From Paludibacteraceae bacterium (GTDB taxonomy: Bacteria; Bacteroidota; Bacteroidia; Bacteroidales; Paludibacteraceae): DNA of 35,234 nt. The position numbers and the translations under genes are program-made. This document shows, one piece after another, positions 3 to 32,861 of this stretch; the first letter of the stretch is position 1; each line of letters opens with the position of its first letter. The stretch lies in contig JAFXYK010000023.1 of assembly GCA_017541805.1 (NCBI GenBank), positions 1 to 35,234 of the forward strand, read 5' to 3'. The notes under the pieces are model-generated. The model was not told the origin of the DNA, did not search any database, and saw only the letters and a list, made by a program, of their open reading frames with translations.

Positions 3-146
3 GTCGCGCAGCGTAACACCGAAGGTGTTGACCAAATCACCAATGACCAATCACCAATCACCAATAAGGTCCTCCGCGACGGTCACGTCTTCCTCCGTAA
101 AGGCGACGCCTGGTACGACCTCTTTGGTCACAAAATACAACATTGA
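3..146 (+). CDS. C-terminal fragment of a probable secreted/surface protein
   Basis: An open frame enters from the left edge and stops at TGA 144-146. The last residues (VLRDGHVFLRKGDAWYDLFG) resemble the short C-terminal tail that ends many exported Bacteroidales proteins, a 'hydrophobic, Arg-Asp-Gly, ... Tyr-Asp/Asn ... Gly' strand-turn-strand pattern. The function of the rest of the protein is unknown because it lies outside the window. Just before the tail, a run of heptanucleotide repeats (38-65) is translated as DQITNDQSPITNK, so a low-complexity linker joins the unseen body to the tail. The other reading frames contain stops. The call as real coding sequence rests on the tail match and on the terminator downstream. 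Confidence 0.55.
   Translation, partial: VAQRNTEGVDQITNDQSPITNKVLRDGHVFLRKGDAWYDLFGHKIQH
38..65 (+). repeat. Heptanucleotide tandem array, 4 x 7 nt (CACCAAT unit)
   Basis: Four consecutive 7-nt units: CACCAAT, GACCAAT, CACCAAT, CACCAAT. It lies in frame within the partial gene and encodes an Asn/Thr/Gln/Pro-rich linker. It is one of several unrelated-sequence arrays of the same period in this window. Confidence 0.85.
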
Positions 147-161
147 TGACAATTTTTGATC

Positions 162-215
162 AGCACTTGCATAGCATTTGCATAGCATTTGCATAGCACT
201 TGCATAGCATATGAT
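162..215. repeat. 11-nt tandem repeat, about five copies
   Basis: Units AGCACTTGCAT, AGCATTTGCAT, AGCATTTGCAT, AGCACTTGCAT and a partial AGCATATGAT. It is non-coding and sits between the end of the partial gene and the terminator. The copies alternate C and T at one position. There are no spacers, so it is not a CRISPR array. Confidence 0.85.
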
Positions 216-240
216 CCCGAGTGGGAATATTGAACATAAA

Positions 241-264
241 GAAAAGCGCCAGCGGGCGCTTTTC
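241..264. terminator. Bidirectional intrinsic terminator between convergent genes
   Basis: A perfect 10-bp stem, GAAAAGCGCC (241-250) with GGCGCTTTTC (255-264), and a 4-nt loop AGCG. The stem ends in A/T tracts on both sides, so it can terminate the plus-strand gene ending at 146 and the minus-strand operon ending at 282. Confidence 0.85.
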
Positions 265-281
265 TTGTCTTATGGCTTTCC

Positions 282-1925
282 TTATTTCAATTCTCCTAAG
301 GCACGGTGGATCTCTTTGTCGAAGCGGATGTTATAGGCGGCTTGGCCTTTCTGGTAATAATAGCGAAGGACGATCTCCGAACCCAGCAGTTCTTTCACTT
401 CGTCTTTATTGCGTTGGATAGCCTCTTTATAATCCGGTGTGAGGAGCGGTTTGAGGGCTTCGAGTTGCGCCAGGGTGGTGGAGTCGATATCTTCGGCTTT
501 CGCCATCTTAATCATATCCTGGTAGTACTTGCCGGTCTCGGTCTCATATTCGAACTTCCGTTCATCCAGATAACTGCAGAACGCTTCTATATCCGCGTCG
601 CTCACTTCATACACGTCCGCAGCGGCGATGCTGTCGTGCAGGCGATGGTAGCGCGTGGCGAAATCGAAGAAATAATGATTGATATAGAGCGAATAGGTGA
701 TGTCCACTTTCGCGCTGTCTTTGAGCACGATGTCGGGTAAGATACCTCCGGCGGTGTCGCGCTTGAGTTCATGTCCTTTCTGTCGCTCGCTGTAGTCGAT
801 AGCCTGGATGCAACGTCCGGAGGGCAGGTAGTACTTACTGGTAGTGACCTTGATATGTCCGCCGTACGCTACCGAACGTACGTTCTGCACGAGGCCCTTA
901 CCGAAGGTGCGTTGACCGATCAGTTTGGCGCGACCTAAGTCTTGCAGTGCACCGGCTACGATCTCACTGGCGGAGGCGGAGTTCTTATCCACCAGCACCA
1001 CCAGCGGCAGATCTTTATACCGCGGTTTATTACGCGTAGGGTAGGTGCGGTTACTCATCGCCGTCTTACCTTTTGTCTCTACGATGGTCACTCCTTCCTC
1101 CACGAACAGGTTCACCATCTGCAGCGCCTCGTCCACCATACCGCCTCCGTTGCCGCGCAGGTCGATGATCAGCTTGCGCGCACCGCGGCTGTAATAGAGA
1201 TCATCCAAGGCATTGCTGAAGGCTTGCGCCGAACCCTCCGTGAACTCATTAAACGCGATATATCCGACGGGTTCGGACAGGCTGTCGGCCTGAAAGACGG
1301 TGTAGAAACTGACGGCATCGAGATGGATGTCCTCGCGCACGACGGACACCTTAAACGGTTTGTCTATCCCTTCGCGCTCGATCTCCAGCACCACCGTAGT
1401 ACCCGGTATGCCGCGCAGGTTATTGCTCACTTCGCTCACCGTCAGGCCCTTCGTGCTCTTGCCGTCCACACTCAGGATGCGGTCGCCGGCCAAGATACCG
1501 GCACGCTGCGCCGGCTTGCCTTCGTAGGGGTTGACGATATAGGTATCCAAAGAGTCCTTCCCTTTCACCTTTAACCTTTCACCTTTCACCTTTACAGAGG
1601 GTCGTTGCTGGATGATGGAACCGATACCGCCGTATTTGCCGGTGGTGAGCATGCGCAGGTCGCGGTCGTTCTTCTTGGGATAATAGACCGTGTAGGGGTC
1701 AATCTGACGCAGCATGGCATTGATCGCCGTCTCCGTCAACTCCTCATAGTTGAGCGTGTCCACGTAGTTCACATCAACCTGACGGAGCACATCATTGAAG
1801 ATCGCGATACATTCATCTGCCCGCGAGATAGCCTGGCGTTCCTGAGCGAAGCCAATTGAAAATTGAAAATTGAAAATTGAAAGGAGAAGCAATAACCCTT
1901 TCACCATTAACCTTTCACCTTTCAT
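282..1925 (-). CDS. S41 family C-terminal processing peptidase
   Basis: A CtpA/Prc-like serine protease, predicted exported to the periplasm. An N-terminal signal sequence has a Leu-rich core (residues 10-27). A PDZ-like domain follows (about 95-195, with GILAGDRILSVDG at 143-155), then the S41 catalytic domain. The Ser-Lys dyad is visible: S318 in NSASASEIVAGALQD and K343 in FGKGLVQ, the usual 25-residue spacing. The C-terminal 100 residues are charged and helical. It is the last gene of the minus-strand unit, 7 nt after coaD. Three heptamer arrays lie in the gene: one over the start codon, one forming part of the signal core, and one making an inserted VKVKGERLKVKGK loop at about 111-123. 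Met7 (1907) is an equally plausible start. The family call is secure. The substrate is unknown. Confidence 0.93.
   Translation of the reverse strand: MKGERLMVKGLLLLLSIFNFQFSIGFAQERQAISRADECIAIFNDVLRQVDVNYVDTLNYEELTETAINAMLRQIDPYTVYYPKKNDRDLRMLTTGKYGGIGSIIQQRPSVKVKGERLKVKGKDSLDTYIVNPYEGKPAQRAGILAGDRILSVDGKSTKGLTVSEVSNNLRGIPGTTVVLEIEREGIDKPFKVSVVREDIHLDAVSFYTVFQADSLSEPVGYIAFNEFTEGSAQAFSNALDDLYYSRGARKLIIDLRGNGGGMVDEALQMVNLFVEEGVTIVETKGKTAMSNRTYPTRNKPRYKDLPLVVLVDKNSASASEIVAGALQDLGRAKLIGQRTFGKGLVQNVRSVAYGGHIKVTTSKYYLPSGRCIQAIDYSERQKGHELKRDTAGGILPDIVLKDSAKVDITYSLYINHYFFDFATRYHRLHDSIAAADVYEVSDADIEAFCSYLDERKFEYETETGKYYQDMIKMAKAEDIDSTTLAQLEALKPLLTPDYKEAIQRNKDEVKELLGSEIVLRYYYQKGQAAYNIRFDKEIHRALGELK
1561..1595 (-). 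repeat. Heptanucleotide array inside the S41 peptidase gene, 5 x 7 nt
   Basis: CCTTTCA, CCTTTAA, CCTTTCA, CCTTTCA, CCTTTAC on the plus strand. It is read in frame by the peptidase gene as a Lys/Val/Gly/Glu-rich insert just before the conserved part of the PDZ domain. The same unit is used again at the gene's 5' end (1897-1931). Confidence 0.9.
1853..1882 (-). repeat. Heptanucleotide array forming a signal-peptide core, 4 x 7 nt
   Basis: CAATTGA followed by three AAATTGA units. On the gene strand it encodes the alternating SIFNFQFSI stretch in the hydrophobic part of the S41 peptidase signal peptide. Confidence 0.9.
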
Positions 1926-1931
1926 TTCTCA
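1897..1931 (-). repeat. Heptanucleotide array over the S41 peptidase start codon, 5 x 7 nt
   Basis: CCTTTCA, CCATTAA, CCTTTCA, CCTTTCA, TTTCTCA. Both candidate ATG starts (1923-1925 and 1905-1907) are formed by the array. The unit matches the array at 1561-1595, so the peptide KGERLMVKG at the N-terminus recurs internally as KGERLKVKG. Confidence 0.85.
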
Positions 1932-1932
1932 C

Positions 1933-2385
1933 CTATCTTAATGTGTTTGGAACGAATTCACTGACATCTTTGCCGTACGCATAGAGGTCGCGTACGAGGG
2001 TAGAGGAGATATGCGCATATTCGGGGCGCGTGTAGAGGATGATGGTCTCGATGTCCCCTAACTGTTTATTCGCCTCCGCCATGTTGCGCTCATACTCAAA
2101 ATCGCCGATACAGCGCATACCACGAAGGATGAACTGTGCCCCTTGCTCCTTGGCGAAATCCACGGTCAGGCAATCATAGATAGCTACTCGTACACGCGGT
2201 TGGTCCGCGAAGATCTTCTTGATCGCCTCCTCCCGTTCGCGGATGGGGAAAGTCTCTTTCTTGGTACTGTTTCGACCGATAGCGATGATAATCTCATCGA
2301 ATAACTCCAGACCACGTTTCACGATATCATAGTGGCCTACGGTAAACGGATCAAAGGACCCGGGAAATATTGCAATCTTACTCAT
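1933..2385 (-). CDS. coaD: Phosphopantetheine adenylyltransferase
   Basis: Catalyses ATP + 4'-phosphopantetheine to dephospho-CoA + PPi, the penultimate step of coenzyme A synthesis, in the cytoplasm. It is a nucleotidyltransferase-fold protein of 150 residues with the signature N-terminus KIAIFPGSFDPFTVGH, including the T-x-G-H nucleotide-binding motif. The C-terminal ISSTLVRDL matches the family's ISSTxVR motif. Length is normal (E. coli has 159). I start at Met5 of the longer frame because homologues begin directly with the KIAIFPGSF strand. The longer start at 2397 overlaps the upstream stop as TAATG, so translational coupling from there is also possible. It lies between an acyltransferase and an S41 peptidase. 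Confidence 0.95.
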   Translation of the reverse strand: MSKIAIFPGSFDPFTVGHYDIVKRGLELFDEIIIAIGRNSTKKETFPIREREEAIKKIFADQPRVRVAIYDCLTVDFAKEQGAQFILRGMRCIGDFEYERNMAEANKQLGDIETIILYTRPEYAHISSTLVRDLYAYGKDVSEFVPNTLR

Positions 2386-2390
2386 ATCTC

Positions 2391-3759: not shown

Positions 3760-3762
3760 CTT

Positions 3763-3790
3763 TCAATTGTCAATTGTCAATTTTCAATTT
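3763..3790 (-). repeat. Heptanucleotide array at the C1B peptidase/YigZ junction, 4 x 7 nt
   Basis: TCAATTG, TCAATTG, TCAATTT, TCAATTT on the plus strand. It encodes the peptidase tail KLKIDN and contains its TGA stop. The YigZ GTG start lies only a few bases beyond the array. Confidence 0.88.
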
Positions 3791-4984
3791 ACGACGGATG
3801 TCTTTTGGTATCGCGTTTTTATGCACGAGGATGTCATTCGTCTTGTATTGCATGAACGCCTCGCTGATATACCAAATACCCTTGTAATCCGACTTGACGG
3901 TGCCCCAACTGTTCTTCACCATGTAATAGCGCTTGCCGTTCTGGTCTTTGGCGGTACCGAAGATCTGCATACCATGGTCGTCGGTCGTCTCCCAGTTGTC
4001 GAACGCATCCTGGCGCATCTGCTGGGTGATGGTCTTCTCCGGCAAGGGTTTATTGGTCAGTTCCTCTTTCTGCTTGTCCTTGGTCATACCTACCCATTTC
4101 GCCATGTCGCTACCGGTCAGGTCCGCTCCGTTGGCGTCATCCGGCATCACACCGATACCCTTGCGGGTAAAACCGATCTCACTCACGTCCGCACCCCAAG
4201 CCAGCGTATAGCCGTTCGCAATGGCGTTGTCGATGATACGCATCATCTCTTCCATCGGCACGTTGTACATCTGGTCCATGCGCCAGTTGTCCGGCACTTC
4301 GAGTGCAAAACGCTCATAGAAAGGATGGTGGGTATAACTGGTGATAGACACGTAATCTGAGGCATTCAGACCCAGACTCTTGACGAAACTCTGCGGCGTG
4401 TATTTCTTCCCTTCATACACGAACTCCTCCGGACACGGACCCAGATAGGTGTCATAGATAGCCTGTAAGCCTTCGCGCCATACAGGAGTCAGTTTCTTCT
4501 GTTTCGTCAGCCCGCTGAGGTAACCTTTGGCTACGGCACTCAACTCGCTGAACACCGGCAGCGTGTCCGCTTCGGTCCAGCCGTAGCGAATTCCCGGCAT
4601 CGCCTCTTTGGGCACTAGCCCATAGTGCTCCATGCAGTAGATGACATCGTATGCACTACCGCCTTCGGCGAACTTAGGCTCGTTGTAGAGACGTACGCAG
4701 TACGTCGCGCGGTCAATGAGGGTCTTGCTGACCACAAACATCGGCGCCAGTTCTACCTCTTTACCTTTGATACGCAGCACTTCGGACTCCAGAAAACCCA
4801 GGGTCGAGAACGCCCAACAGGTGCCGCTGCGGTGCTGGTCTTTCACTCGCGTGATAGGTACACTGTCCACCGTCGTGAACTGCCATCCTTCTACGCTATC
4901 TTTCTTCACTTCCGTGCTGTCGGTCTGGGCAGAAAGAGCACAGAATACAGAGCACAGAATACAGATTAAAAAAGTCTTTTTCAT
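3770..4984 (-). CDS. C1B family cysteine aminopeptidase (bleomycin hydrolase/PepC-like), exported
   Basis: A papain-fold cysteine peptidase of 404 residues. The catalytic residues are all visible: Q50 and C56 in DQHRSGTCWAFST, H337 in DDHGMQIFG, and N358 in VKNSWGT. These fit C1B aminopeptidases, including the Trp-Asp-Asp-His context. Unlike cytosolic PepC it begins with a signal peptide (MKKTFLICILCSVFCALSAQ), so it should act in the periplasm or outside the cell on peptides; exported C1B enzymes are common in Bacteroidetes. The signal core is built from a heptamer array (4935-4964) and the last residues from another (3763-3790). Its ATG lies 1 nt after the prfB stop (TAATATG). Substrate unknown. 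Confidence 0.92.
   Translation of the reverse strand: MKKTFLICILCSVFCALSAQTDSTEVKKDSVEGWQFTTVDSVPITRVKDQHRSGTCWAFSTLGFLESEVLRIKGKEVELAPMFVVSKTLIDRATYCVRLYNEPKFAEGGSAYDVIYCMEHYGLVPKEAMPGIRYGWTEADTLPVFSELSAVAKGYLSGLTKQKKLTPVWREGLQAIYDTYLGPCPEEFVYEGKKYTPQSFVKSLGLNASDYVSITSYTHHPFYERFALEVPDNWRMDQMYNVPMEEMMRIIDNAIANGYTLAWGADVSEIGFTRKGIGVMPDDANGADLTGSDMAKWVGMTKDKQKEELTNKPLPEKTITQQMRQDAFDNWETTDDHGMQIFGTAKDQNGKRYYMVKNSWGTVKSDYKGIWYISEAFMQYKTNDILVHKNAIPKDIRRKLKIDN
4935..4964 (-). repeat. Heptanucleotide array forming the C1B peptidase signal core, 4 x 7 nt
   Basis: AGAGCAC, AGAATAC, AGAGCAC, AGAATAC, then AG: a 7-nt period with an alternating 14-nt super-period. On the gene strand it encodes ILCSVFCALS in the hydrophobic core of the signal peptide. 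Confidence 0.9.
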
Positions 4985-4985
4985 A

Positions 4986-6092: not shown

Positions 6093-6093
6093 A

Positions 6094-8250: not shown

Positions 8251-11200
8251 ATGAGTAAATTTTTACGCAGTTTATTAGTCATTTTGATGTCGGTGATGAC
8301 ATCGATGGCATTTGCACAGGGTAAGCAATTACCGGATCCGGGTTTTGAAGATTGGTCGGGTGCAGAGTTTAGTGGAAACATTCAACCGAAATATTGGAAT
8401 TACTCCAATGTGTCGCAGATGGGTGTGGACAAGAACTTTGCGCACCAGACAACGGGTCGCAGCGGAAAGGCGCTGAAGATCCAGGATCAGTTCGTTGGTG
8501 TGCTGGGTATCGGCGCCACTTCGCCGGGTTATGTGGCGTTGGGTCATCCGTGGGCATACGTATCCGGATTAACTTCGATCGAGGATGCTACGGCGGGTAC
8601 CTACGGCGGTATCGCATGGAACAGCCGTCCGGACTCGATGGTAGTGTGGATCAAGCGTTATTACGACAGCAGTGTGGATAAGGCGGCCGGAGATCATACC
8701 CAGGATGAGAACTTCAACCTCATCTTCTATTCTTGGAGCGGTACTTCGTATGCTCCTGCATTCAAGGCGAAGAACCTGACTTGTACCGATATCTCCTCTG
8801 AGCACAAGGATGACTACTGTGTGGATGAGGAGTCGGATATCCGCCAGTTGATGGACGGTAACGAATGTAAGACGCAGGTGCTGGCGAACCAAATTGCTGA
8901 GGGTTGGTATTACGAGAAGAAAGCCTATGGCAACTGGACTCGTATTACCGTGCCTATTTTCTATCTGAATGACGATGTGCCGGAGAAATGTAATGTTATT
9001 CTGTCGGCAGGTAACTATCCTAACTTCCGCGCCAATAGCGGTCAGAATGCCGGTATGTCCATGGATGTGGATGATATCAGTCTGGTCTATTCGAGTAAGG
9101 TGCAGAAGATCTACCTCAACAACGGTATTACCAATAAAGAGTGGAAGGCTTTTGACCCGGATAACACAGATGAGCAGATATGTTCGTTGGGCCTGGGTGC
9201 TACGACGATGCCTGTCATCACTTGTGTGCGCGGTGCAGGTTCGTTAACCAATAACCGCGGTGGTAAAGGGAATTTCCCGGGACGTCAATTGGGTGCCAAT
9301 GAGTGTACTATCACGTATGGTGAAGTGGACGGTGCGCCGACCATCATCAAAGTGACCGCAGAGGATGGCAGTTCGACGACCACTTACACGATTAAGTTCG
9401 TCTCGGAAGCCAGCAATAATGCCAAGTTGGCGGACATCCAGGTGAACGACCAGCCTATCAGCGGTTTCAATGCCTATCTGACGAGTTATAACGTGTCCCT
9501 GCCGTACGGTACTACCGAAGCTCCGGTGGTGAAGGCCAGTGCGCAAGACGGTACGGCTACAATTGATATCCAACAGGCTACTTCTCCTACGGGTATCGCG
9601 AAGATCACGGTGACCGCCGGGGACGGAACGACCAAGATGGAATATACGATATCGTTCTCCGTAGCTGCCCTCACGGATGTGACGCTGAAAGCGATCTATC
9701 TGGATGGCAGTTTGTTACCGGGCTATGTGCCGACGAAATCGAACTATACTGTCTCGCTGCCTTTGGGTACGACGACCGTGCCGGCAGTGACCTGGGAGTC
9801 CAATTACGCCGCAGGTGTACAGACCATCAAACTGCTCAATAACAGTCTCGAGCAGGGCGCACAGATTCAAGTGTCTATTCCGGGTTCGACCTTGAGCAAG
9901 ACCTATAAGATCACGTATAAGATCGAAGCTTCGTCGTATTCCTACCTGGCCGGTATCGCTATTGGCGGCACTGCGCTGGAGGACTTCGCGCCGGAGAAGA
10001 CGGTATATAACATCACGCTGCCGCTGGGTACGACTCAGTTACCGGCGATCACTTGGACGACAGGCGATAACTACCAGACCGTGAAGTTAATCGAAGGCGG
10101 TGTGGACGGTGTGACACGTATCGAGGTGACTGCTGCCAGTGGTGCCGTGACGACCTATCGTCTGAATTTCCAAACAGAGAAATCGACGAATAATGCCTTA
10201 GCCGGTATCGCGCTGGACGGCACTCCGCTGGAGACTTTCCATGCCGATACGCTGAACTATACCATCGTCTTACCGGCCGGCACGGCGGCGATGCCTGCTG
10301 TGACCTATACGCAAGGCGATGCGTACCAGAAAGTGACCATGTCGGTGAACCAGGCGCAGATGACCGTTCGCTTGACGGTGACGGCAGGTAACGGTACGAC
10401 GCGTGTATATCTCCTCTCGTTCGAGATAGAGAAATCCGCGAACGCTTTGCTCCAAATGATTTATCTGAACGGCACCGAGTTAGCCGGCTTCGTACCCGAG
10501 CAACTGGACTACTCGATCGTATGGACGAGTGCTACGATGCCAAAAGTGACGGTACTGGCCAATGTAGGTCAGTCCATCGCTATCTCGACGCCTGTGACGT
10601 ACGGCGTAGTACGTATCGTCGTGACACCGGAAGAGGGAACACCGAACACCTATACCGTTCGCCTGAACTCACCGGACGAGGTGACGATACCTGCTTTCCC
10701 GATGGATTCGTTCCCTGCTTCGAGCAATGCGAACTTAGCCGCACTCTATATCGACGGCGAACCCTATGCGGATTTCAATCCGAATACGGTGCAATACACC
10801 TATCCGCTGGCTTGGCATACTTTCCAAGTGCCGGCAATCATGCCGGTAGCAGGTACGACGGGTCAGATTATCACCATCAAACATGGTGCGGTGAACCACC
10901 CGACACTCATTGAAGTGGAAGCAGCCGACAAGACCACCAAGAAGACCTATACGATCGACTTCCCGGTAGCTAAATCGAGCAATACGAACCTGGCTTCCGT
11001 AGAGATCGACGGTGTGAACTTCACTTTCGATCCGGCTACCAAGACTTATACGGGTATCGGACTGCCGTACGGCACGACGCATACGCCATCGCTGACGGTA
11101 GAGCGTGCCGAACCTGAGCAGTCGCTTGTGATCACAGAAGCCCCGCTGGGCAAGCCTTCGACAATCGTAGTGACCGCCGAAGACGGCACGCAGGCTACCT

Positions 11201-23738: not shown

Positions 23739-25196
23739 CTATTTTCGTGCGATATATTGGTAAAAAATCGATTGCTCATACTCGTAATTAAAATAGTTCG
23801 AGCGCAGGTCCACATCAATCTCCTCGCAGTCCTTGCATGAATAATTCCTCAAACTATGCTTCGGCATGCCGCTGTAGTCGAACGAGTTATAGAACTCATA
23901 GAACACGTACGGCGAACTGATCGCCAGACATACGATAAGTGTCACCCATCTGCGTTTCGCCTTTTGCTCCGTCGGCTTGTCCAGCAAGAACCGGATACAA
24001 GCGATATTCAGCATAAAAAGCGGTAACATCGATACGTCCATGCACCAGTCGTTGCACCATCCTGCGCGGCAGATCGGTATCACGCACAGCAGCACCAGCG
24101 TGATATAGAAGAACGCATCGCGTTGCACACCTTTCCAGATCAACAGGACATAGAATCCGAACGTGAATAGGCAGAACGGCAGATACGAGATCAGGTAATA
24201 CCGCAAATCCGTAATCAACTGGAACTGCACTTCCTCCGGTTTCTCGTTCGTCATGCTGCCTGCCAAATAACTTACCATCACCAGTCCCATCAGTCCGCAT
24301 GCGATATTCTGCCACGAGAAGAGATCCGCCAAGAACTTCTTCTCCTTCACACACGTGATCACATAATACGCTATCGCATATACCACCAGCGCAATAAAAC
24401 TCCACGTGCCGCATATCAGCGCCGGAAGCATCCAAACGGCATACAACTTTCGTTGCTCGCGGAAACGGTACAGCAACGTCAGACCCAGCACAGGAATAGT
24501 GTATTGTTCCCACACCCATTTCAGCATCGACAGCGAAGACCGGTATTGCAACGACCGATGGATGAACCAATGCGGCAGACCGAACTGCACATCCTCGTGG
24601 AAACCCACAAAAAGCACTTGCAGCGGCAGGATCATACCGTAGAAGCCCAGGAAAATAACCATCGTCCAAACCTGCTTCTTCGTCGTCTGTGCGTCCACTA
24701 AGAACAGCACATTCACTAGCAACAGCAGCATGCTGAGCCATCCGACGACACCAAGCATCAACTCCGCCACGATCCGGCTGCCGCATATCTTACCTACCAG
24801 TCCGGGGAACAAGTAACTGCCCACATAGTACGTCAGCATACTCGGCGTCGCCGCGTCGTCGTACACTACCGGCCATGTATACTGACTCACATCTTGCACG
24901 ATCGCCGAGTGTTTCTCGTAATCGAAGAAATACGCGAAAACGCCGCCGCAACCGAACGCTACAGCCATCAGCAGCGTGATCACACCTACCGAAACCATCA
25001 GTCCTGTCCGCAGCGTCAACGTCTGACGCTCCATCTTCCGGATTGTCTTCCGATACACCTCATACAGCATATACGCCAACAGCAGACAACTCGGCACAGC
25101 AATCTCCCAGCGGCACCAACCGCCCATGAAAAGCATCACCGGTATATAGCAGAACACCAGGTCCGCAACCACAATATGTCTGAATTCAATCTTCAT
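23739..25196 (-). CDS. Polytopic membrane protein, GT-C-like, tandem copy 3
   Basis: A 485-residue paralog. The first 50 residues are nearly identical to copy 2 (IVVADLVFCYIP, GGWCRWEIAVPSC). The catalytic-loop candidate is FFDYEKHSAIVQDV, followed by YTWPVVYDDAATPSM and TYYVGSYLFPGLVGKICGS. The terminal region has YSCKDCEEIDVDLRSNYF. It is joined to its neighbours by zero-length spacers, stop TAG followed at once by ATG, on both sides. Function by inference: transfer of a lipid-linked sugar to an envelope acceptor in the periplasm, with GtrA/GtrB in the same operon. Acceptor and donor sugar unknown. The near identity with copy 2 over long stretches suggests recent duplication or gene conversion. 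Confidence 0.78.
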   Translation of the reverse strand: MKIEFRHIVVADLVFCYIPVMLFMGGWCRWEIAVPSCLLLAYMLYEVYRKTIRKMERQTLTLRTGLMVSVGVITLLMAVAFGCGGVFAYFFDYEKHSAIVQDVSQYTWPVVYDDAATPSMLTYYVGSYLFPGLVGKICGSRIVAELMLGVVGWLSMLLLLVNVLFLVDAQTTKKQVWTMVIFLGFYGMILPLQVLFVGFHEDVQFGLPHWFIHRSLQYRSSLSMLKWVWEQYTIPVLGLTLLYRFREQRKLYAVWMLPALICGTWSFIALVVYAIAYYVITCVKEKKFLADLFSWQNIACGLMGLVMVSYLAGSMTNEKPEEVQFQLITDLRYYLISYLPFCLFTFGFYVLLIWKGVQRDAFFYITLVLLCVIPICRAGWCNDWCMDVSMLPLFMLNIACIRFLLDKPTEQKAKRRWVTLIVCLAISSPYVFYEFYNSFDYSGMPKHSLRNYSCKDCEEIDVDLRSNYFNYEYEQSIFYQYIARK

Positions 25197-26663
25197 CTAT
25201 CGGCGGGCGATATGCTTGTAGAAGAACGACTCTTCGTAGTTATAGTTATAATAATTAGCGCGCAGATCCACGGGGATATCCTCGCAATCGCGGCATGAAT
25301 ATCCGCTCAAACTGTGCTCCGGCATGCCCGTGTACGTGAACGGATTATGGTACTCATGGAACTCATGTACCACATGCGGCGAACTGATCACCAGGCACAC
25401 GATGAGGATCACCCATTTGCGTCTCAACTTCTTCTCCGTCGGCTTGCTCAGCAGGAACACCACACACGCGATATTCAGCATAAACAGCGGCGGCATCGAC
25501 ACATTCATCGTCCAGTCGTTCAACCATCCTGCGCGACAGATTGGAATCACGCACAGCAGCACCAGCGTGATATAGAAGAACGCATCGCGCTTCGCCGTTT
25601 CCCAGATCAGCATATAATAGAACCCGAACATGAACAGGCAGAACGGCAGATAAGCCGTCAGATAGTAATGCCAGTCCGTGAAGAAACGGAACTGCACCTC
25701 CTCCGGTTTGTCTGCGGTCAAACTGCCGGCCAAGTAACTCACCATCACCAGTCCCATCAGTCCGCAGGCGATATTCTGCCACGACAAAAGGTCCCAATAT
25801 ATTTTTTTCTCCTTCACACACGTGATCACGTAATACGCTATCGCATATACCACCAGCGCAATAAAACTCCACGTGCCGCATATCAGCGCCGGTAAGATCC
25901 ACACGGCATACAGCTTTCTCTTCTCGCGGAAATGGTACAGCATCACCAGTCCTAACACAGGGATCGTATATTGTTCCCACACCCATTTGATCGTGGACAT
26001 ACACGATCGGTACTGCAGCACCCGATGGATGAACCAATGCGGACGACCTAAGGTCACTTCGTCGTTCAAACCAATGAACAGCAACTGCAGCGGCAGGATC
26101 ATTCCCGTGAAGAACAGGAAAATAACCATCGCCCAGATCTGTTTCTTCGTCGTCTGTGCGTCCACGAGGAACAGCACGTTCAGCAGCAGCAACACCAGTC
26201 CGATCCATCCGACTACACCTAACATCAACTCCGCCACAATCCGACTGCCGCAGATCTTACCCACCAGTCCGGGGAACAAGTAACTGCCTACGTAATACGT
26301 CAGCATACTCGGTGTCGCCGCATCCTCATACACTACCGGCCAAGCGCGTTGACTCAAGTCCTGCACAATCGCCGAGTGTTTCTCGTAATCGAAGAAATAC
26401 GCGAACACGCCGCCGCAACCGAAGATAACCGACAGCAGTAACGTAACCGCCAGAATCGTGATCCATGCCTTCGGACGCAACGTCAAGCTCTGACTTGCCA
26501 TCGGCCGTATCGTCTTCCGATAGACCTCATACAGCATATACGCCAACAGCAGACAACTCGGCACAGCGATCTCCCAGCGGCACCATCCGCCCATGAAAAG
26601 CAGCACCGGTATATAGCAGAACACCAGGTCCGCAACCACAATATATCTGAATTCAATCTTCAT
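25197..26663 (-). CDS. Polytopic membrane protein, GT-C-like, tandem copy 2
   Basis: A 488-residue paralog most like copy 3. The loop motif is FFDYEKHSAIVQDL, then AWPVVYEDAATPSM. The soluble C-terminal tail (CRDCEDIPVDLRANYY ... FFYKHIARR) keeps the CxxC pair, and its last residues equal those of copy 1. Two cytoplasmic-type basic loops (YHFREKRK, CVKEKKI) support the same topology as the other copies. It begins immediately after the stop of copy 1 (TAGATG). Unlike copies 3 and 4 it has a three-residue insertion near the C-terminal periplasmic segment (HEFHEYHNPF). Family assignment is by internal similarity and by resemblance to GT-C enzymes; no activity can be claimed. Confidence 0.78.
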   Translation of the reverse strand: MKIEFRYIVVADLVFCYIPVLLFMGGWCRWEIAVPSCLLLAYMLYEVYRKTIRPMASQSLTLRPKAWITILAVTLLLSVIFGCGGVFAYFFDYEKHSAIVQDLSQRAWPVVYEDAATPSMLTYYVGSYLFPGLVGKICGSRIVAELMLGVVGWIGLVLLLLNVLFLVDAQTTKKQIWAMVIFLFFTGMILPLQLLFIGLNDEVTLGRPHWFIHRVLQYRSCMSTIKWVWEQYTIPVLGLVMLYHFREKRKLYAVWILPALICGTWSFIALVVYAIAYYVITCVKEKKIYWDLLSWQNIACGLMGLVMVSYLAGSLTADKPEEVQFRFFTDWHYYLTAYLPFCLFMFGFYYMLIWETAKRDAFFYITLVLLCVIPICRAGWLNDWTMNVSMPPLFMLNIACVVFLLSKPTEKKLRRKWVILIVCLVISSPHVVHEFHEYHNPFTYTGMPEHSLSGYSCRDCEDIPVDLRANYYNYNYEESFFYKHIARR

Positions 26664-28160
26664 CTATCGGCGGGCGATATGCTTGTAGAAGAACGACTCT
26701 TCGTAGTTATAATTCGTGAAATACGTGCGCCAACCCAGGTCGATCGAGTAGGTACGTCCGCCTAATTGGAACGTCTTTCCTTCCTGGTCGGAATAGATCC
26801 GCATGGACCGAGTCGGCATGCCCGTATAATGGTATTTCGTATTCAACTCATGCAGCGGGTAATAGACGTTCAGCACCAGGCAAGCAATCAAGATCACCCA
26901 TCTCCGTTTCGCCTTTGTCTCCGTCGGCTTGTTGATCATAAACCGGATGCAGTAGATACTCAGCATGAACAGCGCAGGCATCGACGTGCCCATCACCCAG
27001 TCGTTATATTTTCCGGCACGCATGAACGGCAGCAGGCATAGGAAAACCAACGTCAGGTAGAAGAAATCATCTTTCTTCGTCTCTTTCCAGATCAGCATGA
27101 AATAGAACCCGAACATAAACAGACAGAACGGCCAGTACGAGATCAGATAATACTTCATATCTGTGATCAACTGGAACTGCATGTTATCCGTCGCATCCAC
27201 GGCCCAGCATCCTAACAAATACGTCAGCATCAGCAATCCGATCGCCGCACAAGCGATATTCTGCCATGACAGGATATCGAGATGCACCTTCCGGTCGCGA
27301 ACGGATGTCATGATATAATCACCTATCGCGTACATCACCAGCATCGTAAATGCCCACGTGCCGCACAGCAAAGCCGGCAACACCCACATCGCGTAGTATT
27401 TCCGTTCCCCACGATGCGTGTACAGCAGAATCAGACAGGTGATCGGCACATAATACTGCGGGAATGCCCATCGCAGAGAAACCAAGGTTGAGCGATACTG
27501 CAGACTGCCGAACACGAACCAATGCGGTTGACCCAACTGCACATCGGGATGGAAAGCAAAAGTCACCAACTGCAGGAAAACCAACATACCGCCGAAACCC
27601 AGATAAGCCAGTATGGCGCCGAACTGTGCCTTCACGCTCTGCGCGTTCACCAACCGGATGATGTTCACGAACAGCAGCAGCATGCCGATATAGCCGACAA
27701 TACCCAGACTGATCTCCGCCAGGATCGGACTGCCGAAGATCTTACCCACCAGTCCGGGGAACAAGTAGAATCCCAGGTAATAAGTGAGCATACTTGGTGT
27801 CGCCGCGTCGTCGTAAATAACCGGCCAGTCGTATCTTGCCAAATCCTGCGGAGCAGCACCGTTGCGAAGGTAGTCGCCGAACGTGTTCAGGTTCACGAAC
27901 ATTCCGCCGTAATCCAACGCAATAGCCAACGCCGCCGCACCGATCATCACCGGATACCATACCTTGCGATGAATAGTGAACGACTCCTCATACAGCACCT
28001 GTTTCCCCTCCGTACGGTAGTAGCGGAAGAACATATACAGGATCAACGCCGTTAACGGTATAGACACCATCCATCGGCACCAGCCCCATAAGAAAAGGAA
28101 AACCGGCGTGTAGCAGAAGAGTAGGTTGACCAACTCTAAATGTTTATATCGAATCGTCAT
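26664..28160 (-). CDS. Polytopic membrane protein, GT-C-like, tandem copy 1 (diverged)
   Basis: A 498-residue paralog, first of the four in transcription order, 1 nt after the DAHP synthase stop (TAGTATG). The membrane architecture and the WPVIYDDAATPSM/TYYLGFYLFPGLVGKIFGS block are kept. The candidate catalytic loop instead reads FGDYLRNGAAPQDL: the Asp is retained, but the Lys-His pair of the other three is Arg-Asn. The C-terminal CxxC is replaced by a longer Gly/Arg-rich segment (EGKTFQLGGRTYSIDLGWRT), while the terminal NYNYEESFFYKHIARR is conserved. It may have a different specificity or be non-catalytic; sequence alone cannot decide. Confidence 0.77.
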   Translation of the reverse strand: MTIRYKHLELVNLLFCYTPVFLFLWGWCRWMVSIPLTALILYMFFRYYRTEGKQVLYEESFTIHRKVWYPVMIGAAALAIALDYGGMFVNLNTFGDYLRNGAAPQDLARYDWPVIYDDAATPSMLTYYLGFYLFPGLVGKIFGSPILAEISLGIVGYIGMLLLFVNIIRLVNAQSVKAQFGAILAYLGFGGMLVFLQLVTFAFHPDVQLGQPHWFVFGSLQYRSTLVSLRWAFPQYYVPITCLILLYTHRGERKYYAMWVLPALLCGTWAFTMLVMYAIGDYIMTSVRDRKVHLDILSWQNIACAAIGLLMLTYLLGCWAVDATDNMQFQLITDMKYYLISYWPFCLFMFGFYFMLIWKETKKDDFFYLTLVFLCLLPFMRAGKYNDWVMGTSMPALFMLSIYCIRFMINKPTETKAKRRWVILIACLVLNVYYPLHELNTKYHYTGMPTRSMRIYSDQEGKTFQLGGRTYSIDLGWRTYFTNYNYEESFFYKHIARR

Positions 28161-28161
28161 A

Positions 28162-29187
28162 CTATTCCTGTTGTTTCAGACTCTGTGCATGAATCAGTTC
28201 CCAGATACGCAGCATGAAATCGGCATCCAAACCGCCTTCCTGCATCGTCGCACTCTTTGCCTTCAGTTTCTCCACAATCTGCTGATAACGCTCCGGCTGC
28301 AACGGTGCCACACCATGCGCTTTCTTCCATCTTCCAATCCGTTCACTCACTTCCATACGCGCCGCAATCGTGTCCCATAACCGCTCATCCAACTCATCTA
28401 TCTCCGCCCGCAACCAATTCAACTCCAATCCGTCGAGCAGGGGGCGAGTTACTCCGAAGGGTATTATCTCCGATATCTCCTCCGGCTTCACCTGTTGAGC
28501 ACTATCAGACAGCGCAGATTTTGGATCACAATGCACCTCGACCATCGCGCCATCCAACCCCAACTCGCGTACCTTGCCCATCAGCATCGGCACCTGTGCC
28601 GCATCGCCGCTCATATGACTCGGATCCAGCAACATCGGGATATCCGGGCGCGCCAAACGCACCTCATGCGCCATATGCCAACACGGCTGATGGTTGCATC
28701 CACGATGAACGGCGATAACCGGCACACCTGTCCGCTCCAACCGCTCGATATTGCCTAACCACAACTGCGCATCCGCATTCACCGGATTCTTGATTATCAC
28801 ACCCTTCAATCTCAAATCAAAAATCAAAAATCTAAAATCTAAAATCGCGTCAGCAATCGCTTGTACCGCAAGCGGATTGGCGCTCGTCCTCGCTCCTATC
28901 CACAGATAATCCACACCTGCTTTCAGCGCAGCCGCTACATGTTCCGGCGTCGCTACCTCGGTCGCCACAGCCAGACCTAACGTCTGCTGCACTTCCTGCA
29001 ACCATTTCAACCCTTCCTCACCGGCACCTTGATACGTATGCGGACTCGTACGCGGCTTCCATACACCCGCGCGAAAAATAAACGGCATCGCTCCGCACAC
29101 CTCTTTCAACTGGCGCGCAGTAACCAATACCTGTTCACGCGTCTCCGCGCTGCAGGGACCTAATATGTACATCCCTTCGGCTACCAC
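28162..29187 (-). CDS. Bifunctional DAHP synthase/chorismate mutase
   Basis: The first enzyme of the shikimate pathway (PEP + erythrose 4-phosphate to DAHP) fused to a C-terminal chorismate mutase (chorismate to prephenate). The DAHP synthase part (about 6-250) shows GPCSAET, KPRTSPHTYQG, WIGARTSANP, IIKNPVN, HRGCN and LLDPSHMSGD. The mutase part (about 252-341) has LRAEIDELDERLWDTIAARMEVSERIG. The N-terminus is short, beginning almost directly at GPCSAE. The start is GTG right after the lipoprotein stop (TAAGTG); ATG at 29172 is an alternative. A heptamer array encodes ILDFRFLIFDLRLKG, inserted in frame between the GARTSANP and KNPVN blocks. It sits unexpectedly among envelope-sugar genes. 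Confidence 0.93.
   Translation of the reverse strand: MVAEGMYILGPCSAETREQVLVTARQLKEVCGAMPFIFRAGVWKPRTSPHTYQGAGEEGLKWLQEVQQTLGLAVATEVATPEHVAAALKAGVDYLWIGARTSANPLAVQAIADAILDFRFLIFDLRLKGVIIKNPVNADAQLWLGNIERLERTGVPVIAVHRGCNHQPCWHMAHEVRLARPDIPMLLDPSHMSGDAAQVPMLMGKVRELGLDGAMVEVHCDPKSALSDSAQQVKPEEISEIIPFGVTRPLLDGLELNWLRAEIDELDERLWDTIAARMEVSERIGRWKKAHGVAPLQPERYQQIVEKLKAKSATMQEGGLDADFMLRIWELIHAQSLKQQE
28807..28846 (-). repeat. Heptanucleotide array inside the DAHP synthase gene, about 5.5 x 7 nt
   Basis: On the plus strand: AAATCAA, AAATCAA, AAATCTA, AAATCTA, AAATC, preceded by a degenerate unit. It is translated in frame as a hydrophobic/charged insert (about residues 115-127) between two conserved catalytic blocks. 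Confidence 0.9.
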
Positions 29188-29655: not shown

Positions 29656-29676
29656 ACGTTTATATGTTTTGTTGTG

Positions 29677-30627
29677 TTATTTTTCTTTTTTCTCGTCCCA
29701 ACCGATCCGCTCTTTCTCGATCACCAGCGGCCGTTTGCGCACCTGCGTATGGATCGCTCCGATATACTCGCCTAAGATACCGATGAAGATCAACTGTACC
29801 GCCGAGAAGAAGAACAGACCGATCACCAACGGCGCGTTACCTACTTGGAAACTGTCCCAGTAGCATAACTTATAGATGAAATAGAACAGCGCCACAAACA
29901 GACTCAGAACCGCCGTGATGAAACCGATGAACGATGCCAATCGCAATGGCACTTTCGAGTGGTTCACGAAGCCTAACATCGCCATGTCCCATAGCGTGTA
30001 GAAGTTATTCTTCGTCTTTCCGTGTTCCCGTTTCGGCTGCGTGTAATACACCTCACCTATGTTCACGCCGTACTCCGCCACAAAACCGCGTAAGTACGGA
30101 TACGGATCATCCGTCGCGCGCAACAGGTCCACAAACGTCTTGTCGTACAACCCAAAACCCGTGAAGTTATCGATCAACCGTGTCTCCGACATCCGGCGTA
30201 CCGCCGTGTAGAACAACTTACGCATACCGTACATGATCGGGTTCTCCTGACTCTTGTTCTTCACGCCAACAACCACCTTATGACCCTGTTCCCATTGCTC
30301 CAGGAACTGCGGAATCAACTCCGGCGGATCTTGCAAATCAGCTACCATCAGCATCACCGCATCGCCGTAACACTGTTTCAGACCGTAGAATGGCGAACGG
30401 ATATGACCGAAATTCATCGCATTCACAATCACCTTGATATGCGAATCCTCTGCTGCCATCTTCCGCAGCACTTCTACTGTCCGGTCTTGCGAAGCGTTGT
30501 CGATGAACACATGCTCGAACTCATACTTATCTTTCAGCAGTTCGAACTGTCCCTTCACCCGCCTGTACAATTCTTCCACATTCTCCTCCTCGTTATAACA
30601 AGGAGTCAATATACTAATTTTTTTCAT
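29677..30627 (-). CDS. GtrB-like polyprenyl-phosphate glycosyltransferase (GT2)
   Basis: A 316-residue GT-A enzyme of the DPM1/GtrB type. It would transfer a sugar from a nucleotide donor to undecaprenyl phosphate at the inner membrane. It begins with ISILTPCYNEEENVEELY and has FIDNASQDRT, the metal-binding ADLQDPPELI (96-105), FTGFGLYDK and KREHGKTKNNFYTLWDM. Two C-terminal transmembrane helices (about 228-252 and 266-290) match GtrB topology. I chose ATG 30627 over 30645 because homologues begin with the MKKISI strand; it overlaps the GtrA stop by 14 nt. With GtrA and the four GT-C-like proteins it makes a complete three-component Gtr arrangement. Confidence 0.9.
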   Translation of the reverse strand: MKKISILTPCYNEEENVEELYRRVKGQFELLKDKYEFEHVFIDNASQDRTVEVLRKMAAEDSHIKVIVNAMNFGHIRSPFYGLKQCYGDAVMLMVADLQDPPELIPQFLEQWEQGHKVVVGVKNKSQENPIMYGMRKLFYTAVRRMSETRLIDNFTGFGLYDKTFVDLLRATDDPYPYLRGFVAEYGVNIGEVYYTQPKREHGKTKNNFYTLWDMAMLGFVNHSKVPLRLASFIGFITAVLSLFVALFYFIYKLCYWDSFQVGNAPLVIGLFFFSAVQLIFIGILGEYIGAIHTQVRKRPLVIEKERIGWDEKKEK

Positions 30628-31027
30628 ATTTTCTTTTATAAACAAACATCTTTTGATAGAAGTAGGAGAACACCGCTACAAAAGGCGTCGCCACAATCCC
30701 GCTCCAATAATCATTCAACCCCGTCGTATGCAGCAGCACCCATATAATCCCCACATTCAACCCGTACGCCAACACATAACACGACACAAACCGCAGAAAC
30801 AACCGGTTGCTCGAGTTGCGGAACACCAAGATCCCGATCGTCTTGAAATTAAACAGTACTCCTAACATATGCGCAGCCAGTGTCGCCCACCAATATGGCA
30901 CACCTATCCATATCATCAGACAGTACACACCTACGCCGAACGCCGTGTTCAGACAGCCCACCAGCACGAACCGGATGAACTCCATATTCAGCAACCGCCG
31001 AGCGATATCTGTCTTCTCATCCCTCAT
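30614..31027 (-). CDS. GtrA family membrane protein (putative lipid-linked sugar flippase)
   Basis: A 137-residue protein with four transmembrane helices (about 18-42, 47-68, 77-100 and 108-127). It matches PF04138 GtrA in pattern: FIRFVLVGCLNTAFGVGVY, the FNFKTIGILVF loop and the basic tail YKRKYEKN. GtrA is proposed to flip undecaprenyl-phosphate-linked sugars to the periplasmic face. I start at Met10 of the longer frame (31027), which overlaps the ThDP-enzyme stop by 11 nt; starting at 31054 would overlap by 38 nt. The neighbours are GtrB downstream and the sugar-modifying enzymes upstream, consistent with this role. Confidence 0.88.
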   Translation of the reverse strand: MRDEKTDIARRLLNMEFIRFVLVGCLNTAFGVGVYCLMIWIGVPYWWATLAAHMLGVLFNFKTIGILVFRNSSNRLFLRFVSCYVLAYGLNVGIIWVLLHTTGLNDYWSGIVATPFVAVFSYFYQKMFVYKRKYEKN

Positions 31028-32861
31028 ACACGCACTTCGCCTGTAATTCCTCATCCATAAACGGTGCCATCTTCTCCAGCGGCGCCGAACTCATCTTTCC
31101 TGTCTGCTTGTCCATGAACGATGCCGACTTGGGGAACAAAGTCTGCTCCGGATGCATGTGTACTTCGCATATCACCGGTCCCTCCGTCGCCAAGGTCTTC
31201 GCAATCGCCTCTTCCAGCGCCTTGCCGTTCTCGCTGATACTCAGGTACGGAATACCGTACGCACCCGCTATCTTCTCCAGATTCGGACAAACGACACCGC
31301 TCGCCGGGTTACTGCCCGTGAAATGACCGCCGAAGAATATCTTCTGCGTCGTCTTGATAGCCAGGTACCCTTCGTTCTCCAGCACGAAGATCTTCAGCGG
31401 CATGCCGTACGTCACCAACGTCTGCAACTCCTGTATGTTCATCTGCAGCGAACCGTCGCCGGTCACGAGCACCGTCCTTCCGTTCTTGTTTGCCGTCACA
31501 GCACCGATAGCCGCAGGCAGGTCATAACCCATCGCCGCGCAACCTTGGTTGGCAAACACACGCACGCCGCGCTTCACCTGCATCGCTTGATAGGTGCAGG
31601 TATAGGCTGTACCGTTACCGGTAACCACTACATCGCCGCTCTCCAGTTGTTTGAATAACTCATCGGCGAACTTATACGAGTTGCAGTATCCGGGCATGTC
31701 GGGGTTGTCGTCAAACAGGGTAGGGATCGCTTTCTCTATCTCGCGGCCCCATGCGCACCATTTCGCAAAATCATACGTCTTCCCTTCTGTCTTCTCCAGC
31801 AGCATATCGATCGCATCACGCAGGTCCGCATGAATCGCCATATCGATCGCCAACGTCGGTTTATGCATCTCCGCCTCGTCGATATCAATCATCACCTTAT
31901 AAGCCTTCGGCGCCAACAGCTTATACGCGTAACTCACCTGTCTCAGACTCAGTCGCGTACCCATCACAATCAACAGGTCGCTGTTCTGTACCATGATGTT
32001 GCCGATTCGGTCGCCGCATATACCCGGTTTGCCGAAGCACAACCGATGGTCGTACCATAAGATATCCGAACCGCTGATAGCCGTCACCACCGGGATGTTC
32101 AGCCGTTCGGCTAATTGCACAAACGCCTCTTCCCGTTGCGCCAATCGTACACCGTTACCCACGTATATCACCGGACTCTTTGCTTTTGCCAGTTTATCAA
32201 GTAGTTCATCGAGCTTCTCCCCTAATTCGTTCATTCGTTCACTCGTTAATTCGTTCACTCGTTCACTCGTTAATTCGTTCACTCGTTCACTCGTTAAACG
32301 TTCATACCTCCTCAGGCCGCTTTCCTCTATCATCGCCGCCTGCACATCCAGCGGGATATCCAGCCAAACCGGACCGGGACGACCACTCAACGCGATATCC
32401 ATCGCCTTGTCCAACTCATACAAGATGTCATTCGGCTCCACGATCGTCTTCGCATATTTCGTGATCGGCTTCACGATACTCACGATATCCGCTTCCTGGT
32501 CGCCTAACTGACGCAACGGCAACTCCGGATACGTACCCAACATCGTCTCCCGTTTGATCTGACCGGAGATATACAGCGCCGGAATCGAATCCAACCATTG
32601 ACCTAACACACCTGTCACGGCGTTTGTCCCACCGGGACCGGTCGTCACGTTCGTCACGCACATACGACCACTCGCGCGATAATAACCCTCTTGCGCAATA
32701 GCCGAAGCCTGCTCGTGATGGTTGCATATATACGTCAATCCCGGCGTGTGACCGATACTGTCATTCAGGTGCATCGCACCACCGCCGGTCACCAGAAAAC
32801 AATGCTCGATCGCATGTGCCTCCACCAGATGGCGAAAAATGAAATCAGATAGTTTTATCAT
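31017..32861 (-). CDS. Thiamine-diphosphate-dependent enzyme, acetolactate synthase-like (sugar-modifying candidate)
   Basis: A 614-residue ThDP enzyme. The Pyr domain (1-180) has the activating Glu at E50 in CNHHEQASAIAQEGYYRASG and the GPGGTNAVTGV loop. A central domain (about 215-360) follows, then the PP domain with GDGSLQMN at 468-475, the Mg/ThDP motif, and NEGYLAIKTTQ. Residues 188-213 are an insertion made by an octamer array (LTSERVNE repeated), which lengthens the linker between domains. The E1-type dehydratase and SDR neighbours suggest relationship to YerE-like enzymes that attach a two-carbon unit to a CDP-4-keto-3,6-dideoxyhexose. An ordinary biosynthetic acetolactate synthase is possible but less likely in this context. 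Confidence 0.82.
   Translation of the reverse strand: MIKLSDFIFRHLVEAHAIEHCFLVTGGGAMHLNDSIGHTPGLTYICNHHEQASAIAQEGYYRASGRMCVTNVTTGPGGTNAVTGVLGQWLDSIPALYISGQIKRETMLGTYPELPLRQLGDQEADIVSIVKPITKYAKTIVEPNDILYELDKAMDIALSGRPGPVWLDIPLDVQAAMIEESGLRRYERLTSERVNELTSERVNELTSERMNELGEKLDELLDKLAKAKSPVIYVGNGVRLAQREEAFVQLAERLNIPVVTAISGSDILWYDHRLCFGKPGICGDRIGNIMVQNSDLLIVMGTRLSLRQVSYAYKLLAPKAYKVMIDIDEAEMHKPTLAIDMAIHADLRDAIDMLLEKTEGKTYDFAKWCAWGREIEKAIPTLFDDNPDMPGYCNSYKFADELFKQLESGDVVVTGNGTAYTCTYQAMQVKRGVRVFANQGCAAMGYDLPAAIGAVTANKNGRTVLVTGDGSLQMNIQELQTLVTYGMPLKIFVLENEGYLAIKTTQKIFFGGHFTGSNPASGVVCPNLEKIAGAYGIPYLSISENGKALEEAIAKTLATEGPVICEVHMHPEQTLFPKSASFMDKQTGKMSSAPLEKMAPFMDEELQAKCVYEG
32227..32298 (-). repeat. Octanucleotide tandem array inside the ThDP enzyme gene, 9 x 8 nt
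   Basis: Units TCGTTCAC, TCGTTAAT and TCGTTCAT in mixed order. On the gene strand three octamers make 24 nt, which is eight codons, so the array encodes LTSERVNE three times with small changes. The frame stays open on both sides. Confidence 0.93.

Follow-up and report, generated by a model that had tools for sequence, protein, structure and literature searches.

Heptanucleotide tandem arrays in a Paludibacteraceae genome: a genome-wide excess of period seven, reused words and word replacement at orthologous slots

The subject of this analysis is a set of short tandem arrays, most of them with a 7-nt unit, in a 35,234-nt stretch of DNA of a Paludibacteraceae bacterium (GenBank assembly GCA_017541805.1, contig JAFXYK010000023.1; hereafter the window). 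The window is contig C58 of a 1,705,382-bp genome that consists of 106 contigs, is approximately 89% complete with 4.58% contamination, and is called G000 here; other G numbers denote related genomes, one per species, C numbers denote contigs of G000, and L numbers denote loci. According to Pfam matches, the window encodes S41 and C1-like peptidases, a release factor, a cytidylyltransferase that by our reading of its sequence is probably coaD, a DAHP synthase, and sugar-nucleotide and glycosyltransferase genes. A first-pass annotation, made from the letters alone, had reported nine arrays with a 7- or 8-nt period, described their units as unrelated and the coding arrays as staying in frame, and proposed a shared generating mechanism that is independent of sequence. 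Tandem Repeats Finder (TRF) recovers all nine, at or next to where that annotation placed them, with periods of 7 or 14 nt and one of 8 nt (also 24 nt).

The leftmost array, of ACCAATC/ACCAATG units (35-65, plus strand; TRF and translation), encodes the linker ITNDQSPITN, directly ahead of the C-terminal tail in a protein that is truncated at the edge of the window (frame 3-143); another protein, on contig C105, has this linker before its tail as well, with a 42-bp identity. The remaining eight are read on the minus strand. Three belong to the gene of the S41 (PDZ) peptidase (282-1925, minus strand, Pfam). At 1561-1593, sense TGAAAGG units and one TTAAAGG unit encode KVKGERLKVKG in a loop after GSIIQQR (TRF and translation), and two further arrays were assigned by TRF and cassette alignment to the signal peptide: sense TTTCAAT units at 1854-1882 encode its hydrophobic core LSIFNFQFSI, and sense TGAAAGG units at 1897-1931 (TRF 1897-1924) cover the start codon and its positively charged beginning MKGERLMVKG. 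Two arrays detected by TRF lie at gene junctions, one of AGTTTAA/AGTTTAG units (2391-2419) spanning the acyltransferase stop and coaD start, and one of AATTGAA/AATTGAC units (3763-3790, TRF 3763-3789) running across the end of the C1-like peptidase gene and the start of the UPF0029 gene. Alternating CTGTATT and CTGTGCT units (4935-4965, TRF) encode, as read from the sequence, CILCSVFCAL, which is the signal-peptide core of the C1-like peptidase. Within the DAHP synthase domain (Pfam), the TRF array at 28814-28846 encodes ILDFRFLIFDL, and the 8-nt array at 32225-32298 (TRF 32227-32295) encodes repeated LTSERVNE between the N-terminal and middle domains of a thiamine pyrophosphate enzyme, as delimited by Pfam. 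Those arrays that were translated are indeed in frame. Periods of 7-8 nt hold as well, except that 4935-4965 is best described as a 14-mer composed of two alternating heptamers. The units cannot all be called unrelated: the arrays at 1561 and 1897 share CCTTTCA, and those at 1854 (AATTGAA) and 3763 (CAATTGA) are sister words. The window words, and longer phrases made of them, also recur elsewhere in G000, where a single 501-bp query gave 40 matches (its own place included).

The excess of period 7 is genome-wide in G000. It was measured in a sample of 614,603 bp, or 36% of the genome, consisting of the window and 40 contig pieces, 20 of which were chosen because their contig matched window arrays by BLAST and the other 20 from contigs outside the match list. 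A lag-based detector (score of at least 12), which is stricter than TRF and finds six arrays in the window at lag 7, missing those at 1897 and 4935 and the 8-nt array, reported 65 period-7 arrays in the sample and none in one first-order shuffle. At the other periods it reported 10 arrays (8 nt), 11 (11 nt), 44 (14 nt, the harmonic) and 0-3 each (4, 5, 6, 9, 10, 12, 13, 15 and 16 nt), so that no non-harmonic period from 4 to 16 other than 7 exceeds 11, and runs of exact matches show the same excess. The shuffles rule out pure chance as the source of the arrays. The match-selected pieces contain 45 arrays in 366,533 bp (about 12 per 100 kb) and the pieces from outside the match list 14 in 212,836 bp (about 7 per 100 kb); the excess is thus present in the biased and in the anti-biased half alike. 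The arrays are dispersed: besides the window, 25 of the 40 sampled pieces contain them. A basic unit of 14 nt was rejected on the identities of 50 imperfect arrays (0.923 at lag 7 and 0.905 at lag 14), 21 of which are nonetheless more alike at lag 14. G000 also contains a long 11-nt array of about 11 copies (TATCCCTCTTT; L024, 9101-9227).

A 106-contig metagenome bin with the contamination given above might be suspected of producing such arrays by misassembly. The same array classes occur, within intact frames, in other assemblies of the genus and in named metagenome-assembled genomes (MAGs) of different projects, and we reject this explanation as almost certainly wrong. Separately, MnmE-like genes on contigs C13 and C16 are 76% identical, and one of these contigs may be foreign to the bin; C13 is part of the array sample (as L034).

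Period-7 arrays are also found in relatives, in stretches picked partly regardless of content and partly for synteny with the window: 10 in 72,511 bp of G006, 8 in 65,500 bp of G015, 3 in 20,000 bp of G003, 5 in 16,500 bp of G018, 3 in 40,000 bp of G014, 1 in 80,000 bp of G002, 1 in 60,000 bp of G011 and 0 in 7,000 bp of G004. A comparison of five genes, chosen because G000 carries arrays there and represented in each genome by three to five loci, paralogues among them, gave 38 arrays in 354,339 bp of 18 same-genus genomes and 4 in 210,300 bp of 12 genomes from other families of the order, one of the 4 being a run of N. Several same-genus genomes, for instance G005, G009 and G010, carry 11-nt arrays, and some relatives with few or no period-7 arrays show arrays of 11 or 16 nt; the 11-nt kind, such as GAATCACCTAT, was seen in such same-genus genomes at L056, L057, L127, L154, L158, L187 and L190. 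The idea that the word ACCAATN is particular to the group was dropped: its arrays occur in 9 of 198 genomes of the phylum (our own included) and those of a reversed control in 13 of 198, and with the control the commoner of the two this test establishes no more than the presence of heptamer arrays in other parts of the phylum. Of 31 genomes, 6 contain a looser TGAAAGG-type pattern; its reversed control matched twice, both times in G012.

The words of the arrays are reused. When rotation and strand are ignored, the 65 arrays fall into 36 dominant word classes; 2,000 composition-matched draws gave 55.9 classes on average and never fewer than 45. At least 20 bp are shared by 54 of the 2,074 array pairs, and in 42 of those 54 the shared stretch includes a variant unit; in a control with random segments the shared stretch did not exceed 13 bp apart from one pair. 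Variant units are present in 70 of the 87 arrays counted, and in 19 of the 33 arrays of G000 and its relatives that have at least two deviating cells, all such cells stand in one column of the unit. One 25-bp phrase, AAAGGTGAAAGGTTAAAGGTGAAAG, occurs at nine places in G000 and in 22 of 101 genomes of the genus (G000 included), its reversed control in none. Of the mechanism proposed in the first-pass annotation, the part that stands is a process with a 7-nt step, for which the excess in G000 and several relatives speaks; its independence of sequence does not agree with 36 word classes and recurring mosaics.

How these words translate follows from arithmetic. Since 7 leaves a remainder of 1 when divided by 3, all three frames of a word give a single cyclic heptapeptide (or a single stop), as was confirmed for all 79 words tested, and therefore an array fits its slot in any phase. 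An unbroken TGAAAGG array contains an in-frame TGA every 21 nt, and in the TTA variant a leucine appears instead; this variant unit matters in genes because it removes the in-frame TGA from coding TGAAAGG phrases. The resulting KGERLK(V/A)K peptide is found in six different proteins of the sample.

The signal peptide of the S41 peptidase is encoded by a composite of two arrays, in which a short spacer separates TGAAAGG units from TTTCAAT units. This composite stands at the head of nine genes (three in G000, six in G015), and its spacers also resemble each other. Within it, TGAAAGG...CCTTTCA forms an inner inverted repeat. When the mature parts were compared for eight of the nine proteins (the gene on C49 was left out), they showed no mutual BLASTP match at E 0.01, and Pfam assigns five of the eight to peptidase S41, DUF5686 with a carboxypeptidase-regulatory domain, TPR, DUF6048 and beta-barrel families. 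The two-array signal-peptide cassette heads proteins that are, as judged from their sequences, non-homologous. A search of plasmids returned one weak DUF5686 match, which is uninformative on the arrays. Across the genus, the signal-peptide slot of the S41 gene is filled in at least four ways, judged by eye in 41 sequences (five further loci lack an anchor): by an overlap with the coaD end in 16, by CTTATTC-type units in 9, by TTTCAAT units in 2, by a palindromic element in 5 and by other material in 9. The palindromic element, CCCTCCC...GGGGAGGG, forms the core of the signal peptide (e.g., SLPLWGGLGRG) in five species (L249, L250, L254, L266 and L278), and in about 16 of the 41 (L241, L251, L272, L275 and others) the signal peptide appears by eye to be encoded in another frame of the coaD 3' end, MEKTLAILCLILC..., so that the two genes overlap. 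In named genomes, relatives of the S41 peptidase (45 loci) come from MAGs labelled Bacteroidales, Paludibacteraceae and in one case Bacteroidia, many of them from rumen or gut samples; these loci overlap with the G-numbered relatives, at least five being common to both.

The arrays occupy loosely constrained slots: junctions of co-directional genes, signal peptides, linkers and protein loops. According to 474 gene calls by a simple caller of our own, whose start positions are approximate, 26 of the 65 arrays fall in gaps between co-directional genes, which account for 5.1% of positions, and 22 lie in gene interiors (71.9% of positions), 7 in the last 90 nt of genes, 4 in the first 120 nt and 6 elsewhere, which places 33 of the 65 in called genes. 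Junction arrays often extend from the upstream stop to the downstream start. In G000 and relatives together, a stop is present in the sense word of 33 of 43 junction arrays and in the antisense word of 17 of 43; the sense word is free of stops in 24 of 35 gene-body arrays and in 10 of 43 junction arrays, compared with 41% of random words. The purine-rich strand is the sense strand in 17 of 26 junction arrays of G000 and 12 of 17 in its relatives, which is no more than suggestive of a preferred orientation. A search for C-terminal tails gave 11 tail-like matches, at least one of them false; two carry an array in the linker, in addition to the cut gene at the window edge.

The enrichment at co-directional junctions, the arrays that span from stop to start and the bias of stops towards the sense word are what one would expect if the arrays were binding sites or modules of translation initiation or termination kept by selection, as was proposed for the TAACTGA repeats, a function that is compatible with other readings. 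Against this stand the arrays in called genes, two thirds of them in interiors, and the junctions at which different species carry different words or no array. Predicted RNA folding gives no support either, since six-unit arrays built from the 79 words do not differ in their folding from those of shuffled words (mean -2.83 and -2.95 kcal/mol, respectively), for which reason selection for unstructured RNA was also rejected. We regard a regulatory role as improbable. Less probable still is that the arrays are phase-variable contingency loci switched by changes in copy number: their presence in signal peptides and at start codons and a unit length that is not divisible by three would suit such a role, but the coding arrays are in frame and the host genes include those of tRNA modification and amino-acid synthesis, beyond surface antigens.

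Comparison of related species reveals that the words at a given slot change. The proteins compared are named TsaB, MiaB-like and ManC-like by our reading of sequence and of Pfam matches (PF00814; UPF0004 with radical SAM and TRAM; nucleotidyl transferase, respectively). TsaB of G000 holds four arrays, three of which encode segments in loops or at the ends of structural elements of the predicted structure (mean predicted local distance difference test score, pLDDT, 87; predicted template modelling score, pTM, 0.85), while the fourth segment spans a turn and a short helix. Its loop after amino acid 82, flanked by conserved PVPTL and DARRME, is encoded by AAATCAA units in G000, CACCTCT in G006, ACCAATC in G002, mixed CAAATTA/ACCAATC in G018 and AATTCAGA-type units in G015, and has no array in G003 and G004. 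The MiaB-like protein was compared with six relatives of 85-91% identity, and its loop after amino acid 70 consists of TGAAAGG units in G000, ACCAATC in G006, AAATC-type units in G003 and G004, AAGAGCC in G015 and a 16-nt repeat in G002, with no clear array in G018. The slot of the ManC-like protein between PETGYGYIQ and FxEKPNLE contains TGAAAGG units in G000, AATTCAG in G015, none in G003 and other material in G002, G004 and G006. In all three proteins, orthologous slots, as aligned by their conserved flanks, carry different words or none. The 16-nt repeat, containing AGCGAAGCG (L152, 2652-2693; L157, 2617-2651), fills in G002 and G001 loops that hold heptamers elsewhere. The junctions of the RF2, UPF0029, acyltransferase, coaD and S41 genes behave similarly in seven species, gene ends being taken partly from tblastn: the units vary, or the gap is short or absent. 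The UPF0029 gene directly follows RF2 in five relatives with gaps of 2, 2, 38, 5 and 2 nt, the 38-nt gap (G018) being built of TGAAAGG units, and in G006 other genes intervene.

The loop of the S41 peptidase presents a different picture and runs counter to simple insertion. Among 46 sequences, 8 show a short empty state and few have arrays (TGAAAGG in G000, AAAGTCG in L265, ACGGAAA in L243), and in G002 the array is present in a decayed version. Here non-repetitive K-rich linkers grade into arrays of several words, as they would if local slippage were all that is needed, low-complexity linkers and leaders expanding in 7-nt steps from stretches biased to A/G-rich hydrophilic codons or A-rich initiation regions, with similar words arising by convergence and no transfer between loci. 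The way in which array orientation and stop content track coding needs agrees with this too. Convergence, however, hardly explains a TTA-bearing phrase that is identical at nine loci of G000 and recurs in part of the genus, the 42-bp identity between two different genes, or the cassettes with mutually similar spacers. The S41 loop makes slippage alone a rival to be taken seriously, if an unlikely one.

The same shared phrase, the composite cassettes with their inner inverted repeat and the repeated refilling of the same slots could be expected from a dedicated array-writing or mobile system that deposits heptamer arrays from templates. A writer using reverse transcriptase, of the diversity-generating retroelement (DGR) or retron type, was rejected on the lack of a PF00078 (RVT_1) match in G000; this family is present in 5 of the 19 genomes searched, and with G000 about 89% complete a gene may have been missed. 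Reverse transcriptase was the sole enzyme looked for, and neither a target duplication nor an associated gene was noticed, without a systematic search. To such a system we give little credence. A bolder form, in which a dedicated process other than reverse transcription writes heptamer arrays from a genus-wide vocabulary into exposed gene slots, also appears rather unlikely to us; were it true, signal peptides, junctions and loops of housekeeping proteins would be overwritten again and again, and the arrays would be a mobile supply of new peptide segments and of start and stop modules.

The explanation that we consider probable, with due reserve, combines tandem duplication in 7-nt steps with a copying process that carries array segments from one locus to another, subject to a filter of reading frame and stop codons. 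Under it, the arrays would be a population of short heptanucleotide repeats that extends over much of the genus, turns over fast and fills nearly free sequence slots. An array would be born by tandem duplication with a preferred 7-nt step in a stretch under low constraint, and ectopic recombination or template switching would copy segments of it to other arrays or seeds, so that the whole genome draws on a limited stock of words and phrases. Selection would retain what a slot tolerates, which in genes means no in-frame stops and a total length that is a multiple of three, whereas stops would be allowed at junctions. The duplication step would account for the period, copying between loci for the shared mosaics and composites, and the filters of frame and stop codons for which word sits where. 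The period excess, the reuse of words, the preference for certain slots and the replacement of words between species are directly observed; the copying mechanism, and whatever favours a step of 7 nt over one of 5, 6, 8 or 9 nt, are inferred. The readings discussed here are partly compatible, and the rivals are not all mutually exclusive.

Several points weigh against this explanation. Copying between loci would be a conclusion drawn from comparisons that are all between species. The five compared genes were selected for their arrays in G000, which favours slots already open in the genus. At those loci the density is uneven within the genus, with no arrays in G009-G013 and G016 and six to seven in G003, G006, G015 and G018, and together with the 11-nt arrays of some relatives this implies that the 7-nt step is not universal in the genus. 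The largest word class comprises 10 arrays, and although the simulated mean is 3.4 the simulated maximum is also 10; one pair of random control segments shares 37 bp, which is unexplained; and the predicted RNA structure of the arrays carries no signal. Most of the 46 S41 loops, examined by eye, are K-rich linkers without a clear repeat, so that arrays can also condense inside an existing linker by slippage. Finally, the S41-loop array is common to G000 and G006, not replaced, and the position of the DAHP synthase array also holds an array in G006, of related words. Perfect conservation at the same sites, which would speak against the view of the first-pass annotation, is not what the compared slots show; apart from these two arrays, they show turnover.

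The genus amounts to a natural experiment, with more than 100 related genomes, orthologous slots that carry different words between conserved flanks and variant units that can be traced, in which ideas on how the repeats arise and spread can be put to the test. The arrays also point to a way in which proteins may acquire new loops, linkers and signal peptides, and to a possible reason why a unit that is not a multiple of three persists in genes, namely that it yields the same heptapeptide in every frame.

Other features of the window may be mentioned briefly. An 11-nt array (AGCATTTGCAT) was detected by TRF at 162-210, in the intergenic stretch after the first gene. A 2,284-amino-acid open reading frame lies on the plus strand at 8251-15105, between a radical SAM gene and a glycosyltransferase gene, and four successive reading frames of 485-498 amino acids lie on the minus strand at 22281-28160; the two that were scanned (22281-23738 and 26664-28160) have no Pfam match.

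Heptamer arrays as such have precedents. The short tandemly repeated repetitive (STRR) sequences of heterocystous cyanobacteria are short tandemly repeated heptanucleotides, dispersed in the genome as in G000, and the motifs of the P6b loop of the Nostoc trnL intron are heptanucleotides too. Rickettsia palindromic elements, too, occur dispersed as short in-frame insertions in genes of unrelated proteins; they are longer and palindromic and have a family consensus, whereas the arrays of G000 are direct tandem heptamers of many words, with an inverted repeat only inside the two-array cassette. The first-pass annotation rightly pointed to heterocystous cyanobacteria, but heptamers are also known elsewhere, including the TAACTGA direct repeats described from marine Beggiatoaceae, some cyanobacteria and five Bacteroidetes (MacGregor 2015, PMC4679880). 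At the P6b loop, an RNA loop that tolerates change, one repeat class has repeatedly been replaced by others, according to the account in PMC4476775; class replacement at one slot is the likeness, and the slots here are mainly protein loops, signal peptides and junctions.

An excess of long heptanucleotide simple sequence repeats in bacteria was reported in 2007 (Mrazek 2007, as cited in PMC4679880 and PMC4692102), dispersed and genome-wide as here, to judge from PMC4679880; the relevant passages of both citing papers leave the cause of the heptamer preference unsettled, and PMC4679880 relays from the 2007 work the idea of polymerase contacts. To what is reported of those repeats, the G000 group adds a shared vocabulary, loops of conserved proteins and word replacement at orthologous slots. 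The TAACTGA repeats, as portrayed in PMC4679880, resemble the present arrays in standing beside start codons, in having a forward word with stops in all frames and the stop-free strand in open reading frames, and in being absent from the same intergenic region of some relatives. They differ in having one dominant word, single-base variants that are rarely tandem and sets in open reading frames mostly at protein ends, while the G000 sample has 36 word classes, interior loops and signal peptides, and variant units are common (70 of 87 arrays). As for position, repeats of the TAACTGA type are mostly intergenic, in forward orientation immediately before start codons; of the arrays here, 26 of 65 are in co-directional gaps and 33 of 65 in called genes. 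The GGGAATC/GGGGATT heptamers of Xanthomonas and Nostoc form dispersed arrays with variant units, mostly of about four units, as do ours, but are described as G-rich and quadruplex-forming (PMC4692102). Borg tandem repeats are likewise said to be fast-evolving and independently arising, in and between genes; in open reading frames their unit is divisible by three and nearly all are perfect (PMC9879509), whereas those of G000 hold variable 7- and 8-nt units. Among the titles and beginnings of abstracts returned by searches of the open-access literature, we found no description of such arrays in Paludibacteraceae or of heptamers refilling signal peptides or the loops of housekeeping proteins. 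Heptamer repeats were already known, and what distinguishes those described here is the refilling of coding loops and signal peptides.

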